A DNA stretch of 50,342 bases from Chitinophaga pinensis (GTDB taxonomy: Bacteria > Bacteroidota > Bacteroidia > Chitinophagales > Chitinophagaceae). Location of the stretch: positions 1 to 50,342 of the forward strand of contig CAMCQV010000002.1 of NCBI GenBank assembly GCA_945877085.1. The letters run 5' to 3'. Position numbers and translations under genes: made by a program. Shown piece after piece: positions 723 to 50,342 of this stretch (the stretch's first letter is position 1; each line of letters starts with the position of its first letter). Below the pieces are notes generated by a model. That model was not told where the DNA came from and ran no database searches. It saw only the letters and a program-made list of their open reading frames with translations.

Positions 723-3083
723 ATGTCAAAGAACTTATTAATTGTGGAGTCGCCTGCAAAAGCAAAGACGATAGAGAAGATTTTAGGCGATGAATTTGAA
801 GTTAGAAGCTGTTACGGCCATATCAGAGATTTGGAGAAAAATGATATGGGTATAGATATGAAAAACCATTTTGCTCCTAGGTACATGGTACCTAGTGAAA
901 AGGAGAAAGTGGTGAAAGAACTTAAATCAATGACCAAGAAGGCAAAAGAAGTCTGGCTTGCGTCGGATGAGGACCGTGAAGGAGAAAGTATTAGTTGGCA
1001 TTTGGCAGAAGTATTGGGATTAGATCCAAAGAAAACTAAGCGTATTGTATTCCATGAAATCACCGCTCCAGCTATTAAAAAAGCGGTAGCGAATCCACGT
1101 TTAATCAATATGGATTTGGTGGACGCACAACAAGCAAGAAGAATTTTAGATAGAATAGTTGGTTTTGAATTGAGCCCAGTTTTATGGCGTAAAATTGGGA
1201 TGCAAAAAAGTTTGAGTGCTGGTCGTGTACAAAGCGTTGCAGTTAGATTGATTGCTGAAAGAGAAAGAGAGATCAACCATTTTATTCCTGAAAGTGTATT
1301 TAAAGTTTCGGCCCTATTTTCTGCATTAGACATCAATAAAAAGAAAGTTAAATTCAAAGCAGAAGGTCCACAGAAATTAACGACTGCAGGTGCTGCAGAA
1401 AAGTTTTTGAATGAATGTAAAGGAGCAAAATATACTGTCAAAGACATTACTGTAAAAGACGGGAAACGCACGCCATCCGCACCTTTCACAACTTCTACCC
1501 TACAACAAGAAGCTTCCAGAAAATTAGGATATAGCGTAAGTAAAACAATGTTACTTGCTCAAAAATTATATGAGAGTGGTAAGATCACTTACATGAGAAC
1601 AGATAGTATTAGTTTGAGTGAAACTGCTATTGACGCAATTAAAGCGGAAATCAATTCTAGCTTTGGCGAAAAATATTATCAACCAAGAAAGTTCAAGAAT
1701 AAAAACGAAAATGCACAAGAAGCGCACGAAGCCATTCGTCCTTCTTATATGAACGAGTCTAAAGTAGACGATGCAGATACCAATCGTTTATATGAACTAA
1801 TTTGGAAAAGAACGATTGCATCTCAAATGAGTGATGCGCAATTTGAAAAAACAACTGCTAAAATAGAAATATCTACCAATAAAGAAACTTTAACAGCTAG
1901 TGGTGAAGTGATGAAATTTGATGGCTTTTTAAAAGTGTATTTAGAAGGGAAAGATGACGACGATTTAGATGAAGAACCAGCATTAGGTGAAGGAGACGAA
2001 AGTTTATTGCCTCCTTTAGCAAAAGGCCAGGTACTTGAATTCCTTAGTATGACTGGATTAGAAAGATTCAGCCGTCCAGCATCTAGATTTACCGAAGCAA
2101 GTTTGGTGAAGAAACTAGAAGAATTAGGAATTGGAAGACCATCTACCTACGCGCCTACTATTACGACGATCATGAAACGTAATTATGTAGAGAAAAGAGA
2201 GAAAGAAGGTGTAAAAAGAAGCTATCAGATCCTTTCTCTAAACCCTAAGGATGAAATTAAAACAGAGTCTGCTTCTGAAATCACTGGAGCAGAAAAGAAT
2301 AAATTATCACCTACCGACTTAGGTTTGGTCGTGACTGACTTTTTGAAATTGCATTTTGAAAAAGTAATGGACTTTGGATTCACGGCAAAAATCGAAGGCG
2401 AATTTGATGAGATTGCAGATGGCAAATTAAAATGGAGTAAGATGTTGGAGAATTTCTACCAACCATTCCATGAAACCATTGAACATACATTAGAAACAGC
2501 TGAAAGAGCAAAAGGTGAACGTGAATTAGGATTTGACCCATTGAGTGGGAAAAAACTGATTGCACGTATGGGAAGATATGGCCCAATGGTTCAAATTGGC
2601 CACCAGGATGAAGAAGAAAAACCAAGATTTGCAAAATTAAAAGCTTCTCAAAGTATCGAAACCATCAGTTTTGATGAAGCCATGGAGCTATTTAAGCTAC
2701 CTAGAACCTTAGGTTTATTTGAGGAAGAAGAAGTGTCCGTAAATATTGGCCGATTTGGCCCTTATGCTGCCCATAGTAAGAAGTTCTACTCGTTGAACAA
2801 GGAAATGGACCCATACACCGTGACGCTCGAGGAATTGACGCCTATGATCGCTGAAAAGCGCAAGGCAAAAGATGAACGTACGATCAAAGTATTTGAAAAA
2901 GAGAAGATCCAACTATTAAGAGGCCCTTATGGTCCTTATATCAAGCAAGGCTTACGTAATTTCAAACTTACCAAAGAGCAACAAGAAAAAGTAGAAGACT
3001 TGTCGATTGATGAAGTGAAGGAGATTATTGAAGAATTGAAAAAGAATCCTCCACGTAAGACCGCAAGAAAGAAGAAGGCATAA
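723..3083 (+). CDS. topA: DNA topoisomerase I (type IA)
   Basis: N-terminal Toprim LLIVESPAKAKTIEKIL, DEDREGE motif, active site ITYMRTDS, C-terminal basic tail. Confidence 0.97.
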   Translation: MSKNLLIVESPAKAKTIEKILGDEFEVRSCYGHIRDLEKNDMGIDMKNHFAPRYMVPSEKEKVVKELKSMTKKAKEVWLASDEDREGESISWHLAEVLGLDPKKTKRIVFHEITAPAIKKAVANPRLINMDLVDAQQARRILDRIVGFELSPVLWRKIGMQKSLSAGRVQSVAVRLIAEREREINHFIPESVFKVSALFSALDINKKKVKFKAEGPQKLTTAGAAEKFLNECKGAKYTVKDITVKDGKRTPSAPFTTSTLQQEASRKLGYSVSKTMLLAQKLYESGKITYMRTDSISLSETAIDAIKAEINSSFGEKYYQPRKFKNKNENAQEAHEAIRPSYMNESKVDDADTNRLYELIWKRTIASQMSDAQFEKTTAKIEISTNKETLTASGEVMKFDGFLKVYLEGKDDDDLDEEPALGEGDESLLPPLAKGQVLEFLSMTGLERFSRPASRFTEASLVKKLEELGIGRPSTYAPTITTIMKRNYVEKREKEGVKRSYQILSLNPKDEIKTESASEITGAEKNKLSPTDLGLVVTDFLKLHFEKVMDFGFTAKIEGEFDEIADGKLKWSKMLENFYQPFHETIEHTLETAERAKGERELGFDPLSGKKLIARMGRYGPMVQIGHQDEEEKPRFAKLKASQSIETISFDEAMELFKLPRTLGLFEEEEVSVNIGRFGPYAAHSKKFYSLNKEMDPYTVTLEELTPMIAEKRKAKDERTIKVFEKEKIQLLRGPYGPYIKQGLRNFKLTKEQQEKVEDLSIDEVKEIIEELKKNPPRKTARKKKA

Positions 3084-3117
3084 AAAAAGAGCGCATCAAT
3101 GATGCGCTCTTTTTTTA
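3082..3117. terminator. bidirectional intrinsic terminator (topA / desaturase, convergent)
   Basis: AAAAAAAGAGCGCATC-aat-GATGCGCTCTTTTTTT, perfect stem with A/T tracts on both sides. Confidence 0.9.
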
Positions 3118-3128
3118 TGTATAAAATA

Positions 3129-4226
3129 CTAAGCTATCGACGGACTAGGTTGACCCATTGATTTTAAAAATTGAACGTGCGCTTTAACCGCCTCTAAGAC
3201 AGTTGGATATTCAATATAATTCAATTTAAATTCAGCACATGCTTCTTTCACAATCTTACTAATAGCAGGATAATGCACATGTGAAATTTTTGGAAATAAA
3301 TGATGCTCAATTTGAAAATTCAATCCACCGACTAACCAAGAAATAACTTTGCTCTTTGTAGCAAAATTAGCAGTGGTTTGAATTTGGTGAGCCGCAAATT
3401 CGTCTGGCAATCTATTTTCAGGTTGATTTGCAATAGGAAATTCAGTATGCTCTACGGTATGCGCCAACTGAAATACGATACTTAAAATAAAACCAGCAAA
3501 AAAGGTACTTACAATAAAACCTACTAACCACGCTTGCCAACCTAGCATAACGATAGGTACAACTACAAAAATGGCTGCATGATATACTTTAACAATCCAG
3601 AATTCAAAATGATCGGCAAAAGACATTTTTTTCAAAGGAATAGAACCAATTTTGCCCTTAAAGTATTTATTATAGTCTGTAAAGAAAATCCAGAATACAT
3701 ACAAAAGCATGTATAGGATGCTAAAATAAAGATGTTGAAAACGATGTAATACATAATGTTTTTGAGTTGGAGCCATGCGCATAAAAACACCCACTTCGAT
3801 ATCGTCATCTACCCCATCCACATTGGTATAGGTATGATGTATGGACACATGCTTCATACTCCACATAAAACGACTCGCGCCAAGAATACTGATAGAAGAT
3901 GATGCCAATTTATTTAACCAGGCATATTTACTAAAACTACCATGACTCCCATCATGCATGATATTGAATCCAATGGCAGCAATCAAGCCACCAAAAAATA
4001 AACACTCCACAATCGCAACGGCTGTTGGTGGGGTAAAAAATACTAAATGGACATAAGTAATAAAAAATAAACTTATTAAAATCACTGCTTTAGTAAACAA
4101 TTTATAATTACCTGTACCACGAATAGTATGTTCTTCAAGATACTGGTTCACTCTCCTCTTTAATTCGGCATGTAATGATTTTTGCACTACAGGGAATTTT
4201 GGAACGGCCACTGTTTGAGTTTGCAT
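3129..4226 (-). CDS. fatty acid desaturase, acyl-CoA / front-end-like
   Basis: Three His boxes: HDGSHG, HHTYTN and QIEHH; multiple TM segments. Confidence 0.9.
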   Translation of the reverse strand: MQTQTVAVPKFPVVQKSLHAELKRRVNQYLEEHTIRGTGNYKLFTKAVILISLFFITYVHLVFFTPPTAVAIVECLFFGGLIAAIGFNIMHDGSHGSFSKYAWLNKLASSSISILGASRFMWSMKHVSIHHTYTNVDGVDDDIEVGVFMRMAPTQKHYVLHRFQHLYFSILYMLLYVFWIFFTDYNKYFKGKIGSIPLKKMSFADHFEFWIVKVYHAAIFVVVPIVMLGWQAWLVGFIVSTFFAGFILSIVFQLAHTVEHTEFPIANQPENRLPDEFAAHQIQTTANFATKSKVISWLVGGLNFQIEHHLFPKISHVHYPAISKIVKEACAEFKLNYIEYPTVLEAVKAHVQFLKSMGQPSPSIA

Positions 4227-4454
4227 AGACTAGTTTAGAATTTAGTACACACAAAATACGCTTTTAATGACTCAATTAAGCCTAAATACTGCTAAATAAT
4301 GCACAATTATGGTTTTATAGCTTATAATGCCAACGTATAAACATTCTAAAAATTATATCATTTATAGATTTTTTATATCCACAAGGATTGTATAACTTAA
4401 ATCGTTTTTTTGGCATTTTTTTTGTCAATTTGAAAAAGATAAAGCAAGCCCTTA

Positions 4455-5333
4455 TTGCCTATGTTGCCTAAAAACGAAGAAATAAAAGCCTTATTTACCC
4501 TCATAGATGACCCAGATGAGGAAGTATTTAGTACCATCTCCGATAGATTATTGGATTATGGCACACCCATCATTCCCGACCTAGAAAATTTATGGGAAAA
4601 TACTTTAGAAGAAACCACATTGGATCGCATCGAAAAGATGATTTACAGGCTTCGTCTCAAGGACATACATCAACAATTGACGGATTGGGCTGCTTTGCCT
4701 AAGCCTTCTCTTTTTGAAGGTGCATTGATTTTGGTTAAATACCAGTTCCCAGAATTGGCATTGGATCCATTGAGGCATCAACTAGAAAAAATTAGACGCA
4801 ATACCTGGCTTGAATTAAATAATTATTTAACACCTTTAGAACAGGCCAATGTCATTCGAAATATTTTATTTAGTTATTATCAAATTAAAGGTATCGAAGT
4901 GAGCTATGAAAATCCAGAAGATTTTTTAGTATCCTCCCCGCTTCAAGCAAAACCAGGAAATGCATTCGCGAATTCATTGATCTATGCAGAACTATGCCAA
5001 CAATTAGAAATACATGCAGAATGGATCAATATTCCTAAGCAATGTATTCTTGCATATTTTAGTGCTGACTGGGAGCCACATGAGATTGTGCCTAACCCTC
5101 AAGAATTTATTCAATTTTATGTAGAAGGGACCTCTGGTCATCCTTTTTCTCAAAAAGATATGGACCAATATTTTTTAAGACATAATATTGAACCTAAAAC
5201 GGTTTATTATAAACGCCTTTCCAACCAGAGAGTGATTAAGAAATTGATTCTTGAATTTGCAAAATGTTTTAAAAGTCCAACACTCCAATTTAAACAGGAT
5301 GATTTAATCGAATTGGCGAAAATATTAGATTAA
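4455..5333 (+). CDS. transglutaminase-like / SirB1-like family protein
   Basis: Overall pattern of N-terminal helical repeats followed by a transglutaminase-like core (KPGNAFANSLIYAELCQQL). Family assignment by recognition only. Confidence 0.55.
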   Translation: MPMLPKNEEIKALFTLIDDPDEEVFSTISDRLLDYGTPIIPDLENLWENTLEETTLDRIEKMIYRLRLKDIHQQLTDWAALPKPSLFEGALILVKYQFPELALDPLRHQLEKIRRNTWLELNNYLTPLEQANVIRNILFSYYQIKGIEVSYENPEDFLVSSPLQAKPGNAFANSLIYAELCQQLEIHAEWINIPKQCILAYFSADWEPHEIVPNPQEFIQFYVEGTSGHPFSQKDMDQYFLRHNIEPKTVYYKRLSNQRVIKKLILEFAKCFKSPTLQFKQDDLIELAKILD

Positions 5334-5350
5334 ATATAATTTAAAATAGT

Positions 5351-5851
5351 ATGCAACAATTCGAACATATTTATACCAGTCCAATTGGTCGAATTAAAAT
5401 TGTTGCTAATAAGGATTGCATTCAAGCAATCACATTTATCGATGATGCTATGTCTACTTCAGAGAATGAAGGTGTTGAGAGCCCCGCTATCATTCATCAT
5501 TGCATCGATGAATTAATAGACTACTTCAATGGTAGTAGAACTCAATTCACAGTGCCCATTCATCAATCAGGAACTGATTTCCAACAAAAGGTATGGAGAG
5601 AATTATATGAAGTGCCATATGCTAAAACTATGAGTTATGCAGAACTCGCCAAGAAACTAGGTGACCCTAAAGTAATTAGAGCTGCAGCATCTGCAAATGG
5701 TAAAAATAAAATTGCCATCATTGTTCCATGCCACAGAATCATTGGTTCTGATAGTAATTTGACAGGATATGCATGGGGATTGGCCAGGAAAAAATGGCTA
5801 TTGCAACATGAATTTAGAATTGGACTTGGTGTTCAAACCTTATTTGCCTAA
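5351..5851 (+). CDS. ogt: methylated-DNA--[protein]-cysteine S-methyltransferase
   Basis: Active-site motif IVPCHRIIG and C-terminal GYAWGLARKKWLLQHE. Confidence 0.93.
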   Translation: MQQFEHIYTSPIGRIKIVANKDCIQAITFIDDAMSTSENEGVESPAIIHHCIDELIDYFNGSRTQFTVPIHQSGTDFQQKVWRELYEVPYAKTMSYAELAKKLGDPKVIRAAASANGKNKIAIIVPCHRIIGSDSNLTGYAWGLARKKWLLQHEFRIGLGVQTLFA

Positions 5852-6325
5852 AATAGACCCTGTAAACCCAAAAGGGATCATATTAGATGCAGAAGGTATC
5901 AATATGACCTTTCCTATTTTCCCTGCCAAAATAAGCTTGATTGGGCTTTTGTATCTAATCTCATAATCTAATAAGGATTGCCTGCACATGCCACATGGAG
6001 ACAATGGATGATCCGACTCAACACCATTTGGTATATAACTAATGGCAATTGCTTGAATAGTTTCATTTGGATATTGACTTCCAATACTATTTAAAAGGGT
6101 TCGCTCTGCACAAATACCTACAGGATAACTTGCACTCTCTTGATTGGAGCCTAGTATGATTTGTCCATTTGATAATCTAGCTGCAGCACCCACTTTGAAT
6201 TTTGAATAAGGCGCAAAAGCTGTATCCACTGCTTGGAATGCAGCTTTTAATAAAGCGAGGTCATCTGCTCCTAATGCTTCTAAATGATCTAACTCCTCGT
6301 ATTCAAATTCAAATTTCTTGTTCAT
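5840..6325 (-). CDS. cdd: cytidine deaminase
   Basis: CAERTLL and PCGMCRQ zinc-binding motifs, APYSKFKVGAA. Confidence 0.93.
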   Translation of the reverse strand: MNKKFEFEYEELDHLEALGADDLALLKAAFQAVDTAFAPYSKFKVGAAARLSNGQIILGSNQESASYPVGICAERTLLNSIGSQYPNETIQAIAISYIPNGVESDHPLSPCGMCRQSLLDYEIRYKSPIKLILAGKIGKVILIPSASNMIPFGFTGSILGK

Positions 6326-6329
6326 GTAA

Positions 6330-7841
6330 TTATTTGATCAAATTAAATAGCCTGTTCCACCTTATAGATTGACTATAGCTAAACCAAATCAATGCAGCTC
6401 TACCAACGATATGTGTTTCGGGAACAAAACCCCAATAGCGACTGTCCTGACTACGATGGCGATTGTCTCCCATCATCCAATAATAATTTCCTTGTATGGT
6501 ATAGGTACTAGTAGCTTTTCCATTGATAAAGTACTGTCCGTTTTCTGTCGTTAGTTTTTGTTGCTCATACCCTTCAATCACTCTTCTATACAATTCAATA
6601 GTGCTATCATTCAACTGTATTTGATCTCCTTTTTTTGGAATGCGAATAGGTCCATAATTATCTGCAGTCCATGGAAAATGCGTAATATCATTAGGGAAAG
6701 TATACCCCACATTTTGATCTTCAAATAAAACAACCAATTTTACATTCGGTAATCTTTTTAAACTTGCTGCAGCTGTTGCGGTGAGGTTTAATTTAAAGAC
6801 ATTTGGTTGCCCTTCTACAAATTGAAAATCGGCTGTAGCTTCATTGATATTGATGCCTAAACTGTCTTGGATAAAATCTTCCGCAAGTGGTCTTCCATCA
6901 GTTTCTACTAAATATTCTGTCTGCATAAATGGTGCTACCAAAGCAGGTTGACCATTTACCCATAATTGACTTTTTTTAATTTCAATCACATCGCCAGGAA
7001 TACCAACACATCTTTTAATATAGTTGTCTGTCTTATCCATTGGATGCACTAAAATTGGATAATCCGCCTGTAATTTTGATCGATCATTATTGTATTGAGG
7101 ACTTCTTAATACATCATAGTAAGGAATCTTAGAGCCAAATTCTGGAAGGTTTATGATGGTGTCGCCAGCTGGAAAATTAAATACAACCACATCGTTTCTA
7201 TTGACATCTCTTAATTTAGGAAACCGTTTATAATCTAACTGAATCCACTTTAAATAAGAAGGCGTTGTGGGTGCACCAGGTAAGGTGTTGTGTACAAAAG
7301 GAAATGATAAAGGCGTTTGTGGAATTCTTGCCCCATAGGTTACTTTATCTACGAATAAAAAATCATTCACTAATAAAGTCTTCTCCATACTCTCGGTAGG
7401 AATTACATAAGCTTCAAATAAAAATGTTCTAATTAAGGTTGCTGCAACAATTGCAAACACCCCTGCATCTAACCACTCTCTTGATGCTGGTTTATGGTAA
7501 TGTGCTAATGCGGCATCCCCATACCATTGTTCTTTTTGATTCAATCCAAGATAAGGTAAATATAAAAAGGGAACGATCACCGTTAATGTATGATGAATAA
7601 AATTGACTCTTTTGAAATGCATGACAAATAAAATAGTGATCCATAAACTTACAAATTGACCTACAATTGGAATCAATTGTATCCAAAACCAAAATTTTGG
7701 AATTTTACAAAGTTGGACAATTTCCCAAGTATTATAAATTGGAATGATGGCTTTATTTGCTGGCACGCCTGCTTTTCTCAACATCGTATAGATACCAATA
7801 TGCCAGCCTACCCAATAAAGAATAAAAAGAATCATGCCCAT
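6330..7841 (-). CDS. lepB: signal peptidase I with N-terminal multi-TM extension
   Basis: IPTESMEKTL (catalytic Ser), YIKRCVGIPGD (catalytic Lys), MGDNRHRSQDSRYWGFVP box; about 100-residue membrane domain before the peptidase core. Confidence 0.93.
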   Translation of the reverse strand: MGMILFILYWVGWHIGIYTMLRKAGVPANKAIIPIYNTWEIVQLCKIPKFWFWIQLIPIVGQFVSLWITILFVMHFKRVNFIHHTLTVIVPFLYLPYLGLNQKEQWYGDAALAHYHKPASREWLDAGVFAIVAATLIRTFLFEAYVIPTESMEKTLLVNDFLFVDKVTYGARIPQTPLSFPFVHNTLPGAPTTPSYLKWIQLDYKRFPKLRDVNRNDVVVFNFPAGDTIINLPEFGSKIPYYDVLRSPQYNNDRSKLQADYPILVHPMDKTDNYIKRCVGIPGDVIEIKKSQLWVNGQPALVAPFMQTEYLVETDGRPLAEDFIQDSLGININEATADFQFVEGQPNVFKLNLTATAAASLKRLPNVKLVVLFEDQNVGYTFPNDITHFPWTADNYGPIRIPKKGDQIQLNDSTIELYRRVIEGYEQQKLTTENGQYFINGKATSTYTIQGNYYWMMGDNRHRSQDSRYWGFVPETHIVGRAALIWFSYSQSIRWNRLFNLIK

Positions 7842-44083: not shown

Positions 44084-44091
44084 ATTAAGTG

Positions 44092-44163
<72 letters not shown>

Positions 44164-48517: not shown

Positions 48518-48552
48518 AACAAATAAATTTTGGAAAAAAATAAAAAAATATT

Positions 48553-48589: not shown

Positions 48590-49159
48590 CTAAAGTAAAA
48601 TATCAAACCCAGCGTAAACATCTGAAATCTCCTCCTTTGTAATTCCTAAATAGCGCCTTGATACCTGTGTGCTTGAGTGATTCAATATCATTGAAATTTT
48701 TAAGAAAACGTCTTCTGACCTGTTATTCTCATCATACAAGAAACGAGCTCCCGATTTACGTAGCGAGTGCGTAGATACCCTCTTTTTACGGATGCCAACA
48801 AACCTTGAACCAAACTGCAATAATCTATTTGTGTGGCGAAGTGAGTAAGTGAAGATGGTACAATCCAAGTTTGGATGTCCTATCAATTCATAGTATTCAA
48901 GTAATAATGACTTAAGAACAGAACCCACTTTAATACTCCGTTTCTTACCTGTTTTCTTTTCATTTAGGACGAGTTCGTCTTTATTTAATACACTCTCCCA
49001 AGTGAACCTTGATATGTCTGAATAACGAAGCAGTGTTCGAAATCCGAACTCTATTAATAGCGCCATCTGGTAGTTCTGCTCCTTTTGGAAGTACCTATTC
49101 AAACGTTTCAATTCGTCAGTGGTTAAATAATCACTCGTTTTTTCAATAGTGGTGGTCAT
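48590..49159 (-). CDS. short tyrosine recombinase (catalytic domain only)
   Basis: FRTLLRYSDI (Arg I), KKTGKKRSIKV (Lys), STHSLRKSGAR (HxxR), LNHSSTQVSRRYLG (H..Y); no N-terminal core-binding domain in 189 aa; in-frame TGA 30 nt upstream of the ATG. Confidence 0.88.
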   Translation of the reverse strand: MTTTIEKTSDYLTTDELKRLNRYFQKEQNYQMALLIEFGFRTLLRYSDISRFTWESVLNKDELVLNEKKTGKKRSIKVGSVLKSLLLEYYELIGHPNLDCTIFTYSLRHTNRLLQFGSRFVGIRKKRVSTHSLRKSGARFLYDENNRSEDVFLKISMILNHSSTQVSRRYLGITKEEISDVYAGFDILL

Positions 49160-49451: not shown

Positions 49452-49763
49452 CTAGCGATACTTGTTTGGCATAATATCAGGGTCATATTCATTAATATCA
49501 TCCATCAGTTTTATCTCAAGGTCTTTGAAAAGGTATACCTCCAAGTAAAATGAAAGATATGCAGCAACATCCTCTTTGTACCCTGATATTCCAAACTTAT
49601 CACTCTTAACATTATTCATCCTCATCATTTGCTCAATCTTGTCTAACATGTAATAGTAGCAATCACTTTTATGGATATTATCGTTCATTTGAGATCCTTT
49701 TGATAATGCAAACACTGCAATTTCAGGGTACTTAATTTCTGGTCTATTTCTTTTTCTGTGCAT
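49452..49763 (-). CDS. hypothetical protein (103 aa)
   Basis: Open frame, acidic/Met-rich, no recognised family; overlaps the preceding small ORF by 20 nt. Confidence 0.55.
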   Translation of the reverse strand: MHRKRNRPEIKYPEIAVFALSKGSQMNDNIHKSDCYYYMLDKIEQMMRMNNVKSDKFGISGYKEDVAAYLSFYLEVYLFKDLEIKLMDDINEYDPDIMPNKYR

Positions 49764-49914
49764 GGGTGTTTGTTTTGATTAAATGGGTGTTCTTTATTTG
49801 TTTTTCCTCTTGGAGGGTTAGTACATTATTAGCTAGGGCTTTAAATTGGGTTTCACTAATAATCATCTTCAGTTTCCTGTTTGGACTGTCTTGTACAAGC
49901 GTTCTTAATTTCAT
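49744..49914 (-). CDS. hypothetical small protein (56 aa), not in supplied ORF track
   Basis: Manual translation MKLRTLVQDSPNRKLKMIISETQFKALANNVLTLQEEKQIKNTHLIKTNTHAQKKK*; overlaps the downstream ORF, same strand. Confidence 0.4.
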   Translation of the reverse strand: MKLRTLVQDSPNRKLKMIISETQFKALANNVLTLQEEKQIKNTHLIKTNTHAQKKK

Positions 49915-49980: not shown

Positions 49981-50332
49981 GAATAAATGGGGTTTATTCA
50001 CGAAAGGGATAGTATTTTCATAACTAGCAAAAACACTTAAACGCTAGTATTATTTGGGATAGTATTACACCCATACCGAAAAGATGGGGGTTGATCTTAT
50101 TATAGGTCTCCCAACTTCTCACGACAAATAAATTTTATTTTGAGGGTAGTTCTGCAAGGAACTTCCTGACAGATGGCAGGAAGTTGAGTACCAAAAATAA
50201 ATCACTAGTCCCCATTTCACCTTTACCGAAACAAGACAAGGTTGAAAATGAATTTTACTTTTACCGAAAACAGAAAAGGTGCAGAATATCTCCGAAACTA
50301 CCGGAGATTTCTTTATTTCAGGTAGTACCTGA
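49981..50332. repeat. dense non-coding array of eight inverted repeats, several sharing a (T)ACCGAAA loop
   Basis: Hairpins at 49981-49999, 50023-50048, 50070-50088, 50160-50185, 50219-50242, 50258-50278, 50288-50308 and 50318-50332, read directly from the sequence. Confidence 0.7.
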
Positions 50333-50342
50333 GGAGGTAATT

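Follow-up and report, generated by a model that had tools for sequence, protein, structure and literature searches.

A ~140-bp repeat-flanked, possibly origin-like unit in small mobile elements of a freshwater Chitinophagaceae genus

Do hairpins that share a loop motif at the end of a contig form an RNA family, or do they belong to something larger? The question is raised by the 3' end of the window, i.e., the whole stretch of 50,342 nucleotides analysed here, which spans contig C2 of an 84%-complete MAG (1.76 Mb) from end to end. The original prediction read three hairpins with a constant ACCGAAA loop, and a fourth with CCGAAAC across its stem/loop junction, all within 300 bases of the contig end, as having stems that look covarying. 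The four strings were verified at their positions, and ACCGAAA occurs on the + strand at 50075, 50225 and 50263, three times within 195 bases. A DNA search over 147 genomes of the genus returned pieces of this stretch in other mobile elements, and comparison with these identifies the second and third hairpins as the arms, H2 and H1, of a larger unit. The features of the region are as follows:

50070..50088, + strand: hairpin 1, in the upstream region of a recombinase module and outside the unit; kept only in genome G066
50132..50146, + strand: ATTTTATTTTGAGGG, segment of the unit's core adjoining the edge of the recombinase module (comparison with intact units)
50160..50185, + strand: strong hairpin (-12.5 kcal/mol) inserted in the unit's right half, missing from intact units
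50185..50243, + strand: right half of the unit, covering model positions 82-141 and including ATCACTAGTCCCCATTTC (match to model R1, E 1.1e-6)
50218..50243, + strand: H2, right arm repeat of the unit, CACCTTTACCGAAACAAGACAAGGTT (sequence comparison); hairpin 2 (50219-50242)
50256..50281, + strand: H1, left arm repeat of the unit, TACTTTTACCGAAAACAGAAAAGGTG (sequence comparison); hairpin 3 (50258-50278)
50257..50340, + strand: left half of the unit, covering model positions 2-66 and including GGTAGTACCTGAGGAGGTAA; the halves are permuted (match to R1, E 6.7e-4)
50288..50308, + strand: hairpin 4, perfect 7-bp stem; kept in G066, missing from intact units

First, we consider whether the hairpins stand out from chance. 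Three ACCGAAA hairpins were observed vs 0.0045 expected per dinucleotide shuffle of a 1.2-kb region with this 7-mer fixed, a motif picked after inspection of the sequence; with any 7-mer permitted, three hairpins were attained in 17 of 200 shuffles. Window-wide, ACCGAAA is not enriched (8 vs 4.4 expected; 10 of 100 shuffles). Stems are moderately abundant in the surrounding 403-nt stretch (13 vs 6.2, 7 of 500 shuffles), with fold z-scores of -2.1 and -2.7. A direct repeat underlies hairpins 2 and 3, which are its diverged copies (50214-50249 and 50252-50287; 78% identity over 36 nt, 38 bases apart); its length can be set at 26-36 nt. Hence, the three ACCGAAA hairpins count as no more than about two independent events. 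This repeat has no relationship to hairpins 1 and 4, and hairpin 4 is an addition seen only in the window and G066.

The closest homologue, on contig C28 of G066 (locus L026), is 98% identical over 418 bp and extends past the end of the window. Here the supposedly conserved loop is mutated in two of the three hairpins (ACTGAAA in hairpin 2, ACCAAAA in hairpin 1), with zero substitutions in stem bases, and loops also differ among other H1/H2 copies. The 26-nt repeat is represented by nine H1/H2 copies in five elements; 84.7% of their cells are paired vs 85.4% after shuffling, and double changes in the local stems number 2 vs 1.7. Folded locally, neither window copy does better than shuffled letters (P 0.27 and 0.23). 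With a covariance model built on the 26-nt hairpin, only the two window copies were recovered at E<1 in their own genome, and weak background matches only in 20 relatives; two of three matches inspected resemble ordinary terminators, with loops TTTCGG or TGTTTGGG. For the hairpins as drawn, the outcome is largely what the original prediction had named as evidence against itself, neither more hits than in shuffled sequence nor covarying pairs in homologues. Hairpins with differing stems are indeed present, but a dispersed family under structural selection is not supported, given the lack of covariation and of further copies and a loop motif that itself mutates. The four do not form one RNA family with covarying stems.

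What the repeat does belong to is a non-coding unit of ~140 bp that is intact in four further mobile elements within the genus (genomes G069, G159, G164 and G034), where alignment gives the layout H1-GGTAGTACCTGAGGAGGT-AT-rich/polyA-CTAGTCCCCATTTC-H2. H1 and H2 are ~26-bp direct repeats, each an imperfect palindrome of the form AACCTTTACC-GAAACA-GGATAAGGTT. The core stretch between the arms is 76-79% A+T and includes a poly-A or poly-T tract, and its best-conserved parts are GC-containing motifs rather than the AT tract. In G034 both arms are replaced by a different, nearly perfectly complementary pair, inverted rather than direct, while the core is kept. With its conserved interior and variable ends, the unit was rejected as a transposon with terminal inverted repeats. 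Model R1, built from the sequence of the unit only, scores 98-120 bits at the four intact loci, and in a scan of 147 genus and 399 family genomes six loci alone rise above background, four intact and two split, with nothing comparable in the 399 family genomes. In viral contigs, exact core patterns gave unrelated matches only and the core-to-core pattern gave none; phage and plasmid collections held no match to the unit, nor did Rfam for the window region and the intact units.

Two further explanations were weighed. In the first, the hairpins are ordinary terminators of the intrinsic type or arose by chance in AT-rich DNA; this would fit the unremarkable folding of the window copies, the terminator-like matches of the covariance model and the shuffles in which any 7-mer was permitted; moreover, H1 and H2 resemble terminators with UUCG-like loops in their short stem and in TTTCGG/CCGAAA in the loop region. 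However, the order and sequence of H1, core and H2 are conserved in four other elements, the two repeats are paired around a conserved core, and no T run follows H1 or H2 of the window on either strand, leaving this explanation very unlikely. The unit might also be the remnant of a decayed gene. In G159 a frame is open across H1, core and H2 (TSSKTGKGG...SLVPISTFSETG), and VVPEEV / SLVPIS can be read through in some other copies. Against such a pseudogene, stops or homopolymer indels break the frame in the three other intact copies, the peptide occurs in no longer gene in the 147 genomes, Pfam or PHROGs, and where the core DNA is identical between the most distant copies, third positions are identical too; we consider a protein-coding ancestry most unlikely.

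In the window, the unit is broken and permuted, in the order right half, H2, H1, left half. The unit of G066 is similarly split, its left half matching model positions 2-84, and in both genomes the split halves abut a small tyrosine-recombinase module. The split order could conceivably be an assembly error at the contig end; the same split order is found in G066. Because its arms pair poorly, the window copy is probably rearranged or decayed, and being split and permuted it may therefore be non-functional. The adjoining rep gene would lie beyond the end of the window's contig, as judged from G066.

Next, we turn to pairing between the two arms. Each of the four intact copies has an H1 complementary to its own H2 across the core, with matched duplex energies of -16 to -31 kcal/mol, and the arms of G034 reach -31.2 kcal/mol with their own partner vs -4.1 to -14.5 with any other locus. 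In the A3 alignment, 91.9% of cells in the H1-H2 stem are paired vs 80.7% in shuffles (0 of 500), and six pairs are changed on both sides, in an alignment of four sequences where mostly one carries the changes and from which the structure itself was predicted. The signal is thin, and suggestive of selection on H1-H2 pairing. Hence, while the selection on structure proposed for the local stems has found no footing, there is some support for another pairing.

These data would fit a structured non-coding RNA or folded single-stranded DNA, in which an H1-H2 stem would close a core of ~85 nt with GGTAGTACCTGAGGAGGT and CTAGTCCCCATTTC and the window copy would be a circular permutation. The duplex energies, the exclusive fit of the G034 arms, the double changes and a core that stays fixed while the arms vary, unlike a transposon with terminal repeats, all argue for it. 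On the other hand, arms that bind one protein would co-change too, the changes lie mainly in one of four sequences with the structure drawn from the same alignment, the duplex of the window is weak (-8.3, P 0.11), and the unit has no Rfam match. We regard a structured molecule as unlikely overall, yet as the main rival to the origin-like reading developed below. In retron ncRNAs, a long terminal stem closes a structured RNA. As in retron-type RNAs, variable but complementary ends surround a conserved core; unlike them, the putative RNA has no Rfam match, and no reverse transcriptase was seen among the ORFs read. That the unit is an undescribed mobile-element RNA with a covarying closing stem and a fixed core, circularly permuted in the window and G066, seems quite unlikely.

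The recombinase module next to the split unit raises the possibility of a recombination site. Its features in the window are:

48590..49159, - strand: 189-aa tyrosine recombinase (PF00589; family match), at the end of a mobile element
49452..49763, - strand: 103-aa ORF of the module, no known family (ORF and family search)
49744..49914, - strand: 56-aa ORF of the module, no known family; 94.6% to L026
49997..50128, - strand: upstream region of the module, bounded by TTTGTCGTRA (50121-50128) and CCCTTTCGTGAAT (49997-50009); common to ~14 loci

The 189-aa recombinase has ten relatives at 88-96% identity. A noncoding stretch of the same kind precedes every one of them, as do two small ORFs in most cases. 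In the homologues of the upstream region (L022-L031, L074-L076) the borders TTTGTCGTRA and CCCTTTCGTGAA are conserved and the interior is variable. A second, longer tyrosine recombinase is present at many such loci too, along with a replication-type gene and ParB-methylase genes. The long recombinase of G069 adjoins a tRNA-Met gene, and a 26-bp duplicate of this tRNA's 3' end and flank lies after the 3' end of the 189-aa recombinase gene in G066, so that integration with recombinases at both ends holds for at least one case. On contig C28 of G066 (L066, ~2212-7728), two outward-pointing tyrosine recombinases lie at opposite ends of a small element, with half an initiator-tRNA sequence after the long recombinase and the tRNA-Met 3'-end copy after the short one. 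The chromosome of the window resembles unoccupied relatives up to ~48531. A 13-bp direct repeat, ACAAATAAATTTT, lies at this end of similarity (48519-48531) and at the module edge (50124-50136); its interpretation as the ends of a 1.6-kb mobile module was dropped, because G066 has just one copy and the element there extends further. An intact tRNA-Met (CAT) is present at 44091-44163; its 5' half exactly matches the half tRNA that G066 has at the end with the long recombinase, and the window's element might reach to it.

Under a recombination or cargo-junction model, H1 and H2 would be core sites of a tyrosine recombinase, with inverted arms of ~10 bp around the 6-bp GAAACA, and the split would stem from recombination at the core. 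The repeat layout invites this interpretation, as do the split halves abutting the module in the window and G066, the copies of ACAAATAAATTTT at 48519 and 50124, and the genes past the unit, which differ in every copy and in two cases match restriction or predicted defence models, suggesting a putative defence cargo zone next to the unit. The PADLOC matches beside the unit are NsnA, a type IIG restriction-methyltransferase, and PDC-S11, a type I methyltransferase (L105:11846-17931, L103:776-3614). The short tyrosine recombinase, to which the original prediction had tied the hairpins, is however linked by neighbourhood only: in the regions fetched, four of the six unit copies are without a close relative of the 189-aa recombinase alongside. 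Furthermore, ACAAATAAATTTT does not flank the module in G066, and the element's own integrase end maps to tRNA-Met rather than to the unit. A role in recombination is thus quite unlikely. The unit was also rejected as an att site, sharing no core with the tRNA-bounded element ends, and as an integron attC, with no integron integrase seen and end motifs that, judged by eye, do not fit.

We tentatively favour, at somewhat less than even chances, a different explanation: the unit might serve a satellite-like mobile element as an origin-like cis element. The elements that house it encode a replication-type gene as well as integrases located at a tRNA-Met gene, in keeping with this view. An initiator encoded by the element would bind the two repeats H1 and H2, and the AT-rich stretch between them would melt, as at a replication origin. 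All four intact units lie 3' of a rep-type gene, at 79 bp in G069, 102 bp in G159, 10 bp in G034 and 590 bp in G164, where one small ORF intervenes. The position expected of an origin, immediately 3' of a replication initiation gene, is therefore found at 10-102 bp in three copies and at 590 bp in the fourth, the genes being called initiators by family matches only. Repeats flanking an AT-rich region are likewise found, though as one repeat per side and not as a set. Counting against an origin, the neighbouring rep-type genes are of three unrelated kinds (HTH_36/DnaD-like, DUF6291 and BT4734-like), the core is best conserved in its GC-containing motifs, and the G034 arms are inverted. As to whether the repeats are specific to a cognate initiator, the same repeats beside unrelated rep genes speak against it, and different arms beside a 32%-identical BT4734 homologue speak for it.

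Published origin layouts offer a comparison. A pair of semi-palindromic repeats on either side of an AT-rich, poly-A tract, 3' of an initiator-type gene, agrees with the layout published for satellite origins (PICI, PMC6092414; PLE, PMC7145576). As in the PICI/SaPI and PLE origins (RepA_N iterons), the unit lies 3' of an initiator-type gene in a small integrase-carrying element, its repeats (semi-palindromic in PLE) flank an AT-rich, poly-A stretch, and interference or defence genes follow further along. Unlike these origins, the unit has two long repeats instead of sets of short iterons, the repeats are inverted in one copy, and it occurs in a minority of element copies and beside unrelated rep genes. 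Because only six of ~15 copies of the element family, counted by eye, carry it, the unit is not a universal origin of the family. Directly 3' of rep, ACGAA short repeats and a GAAGTC/GACTTC hairpin occur at L022, L024, L025, L028 and L089; this stretch is common to elements with and without the unit and could be another origin candidate. The element of G069 also contains a SAM-I/IV riboswitch (L089:251-346; contig C50, ~1187-1282; 58.6 bits, E 8.6e-8), with small ORFs of unknown function close by.

The hairpin-family reading, attractive but wrong, gives way to a testable one, a conserved cis element of ~140 bp. It resides in a family of small freshwater Bacteroidota elements with a replication-type gene, tyrosine recombinases and variable cargo that is apparently undescribed. 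Should the unit be an RNA, it would represent a new family that includes a permuted form; should it be an origin, it would provide a handle on the replication of such small freshwater Bacteroidota elements.
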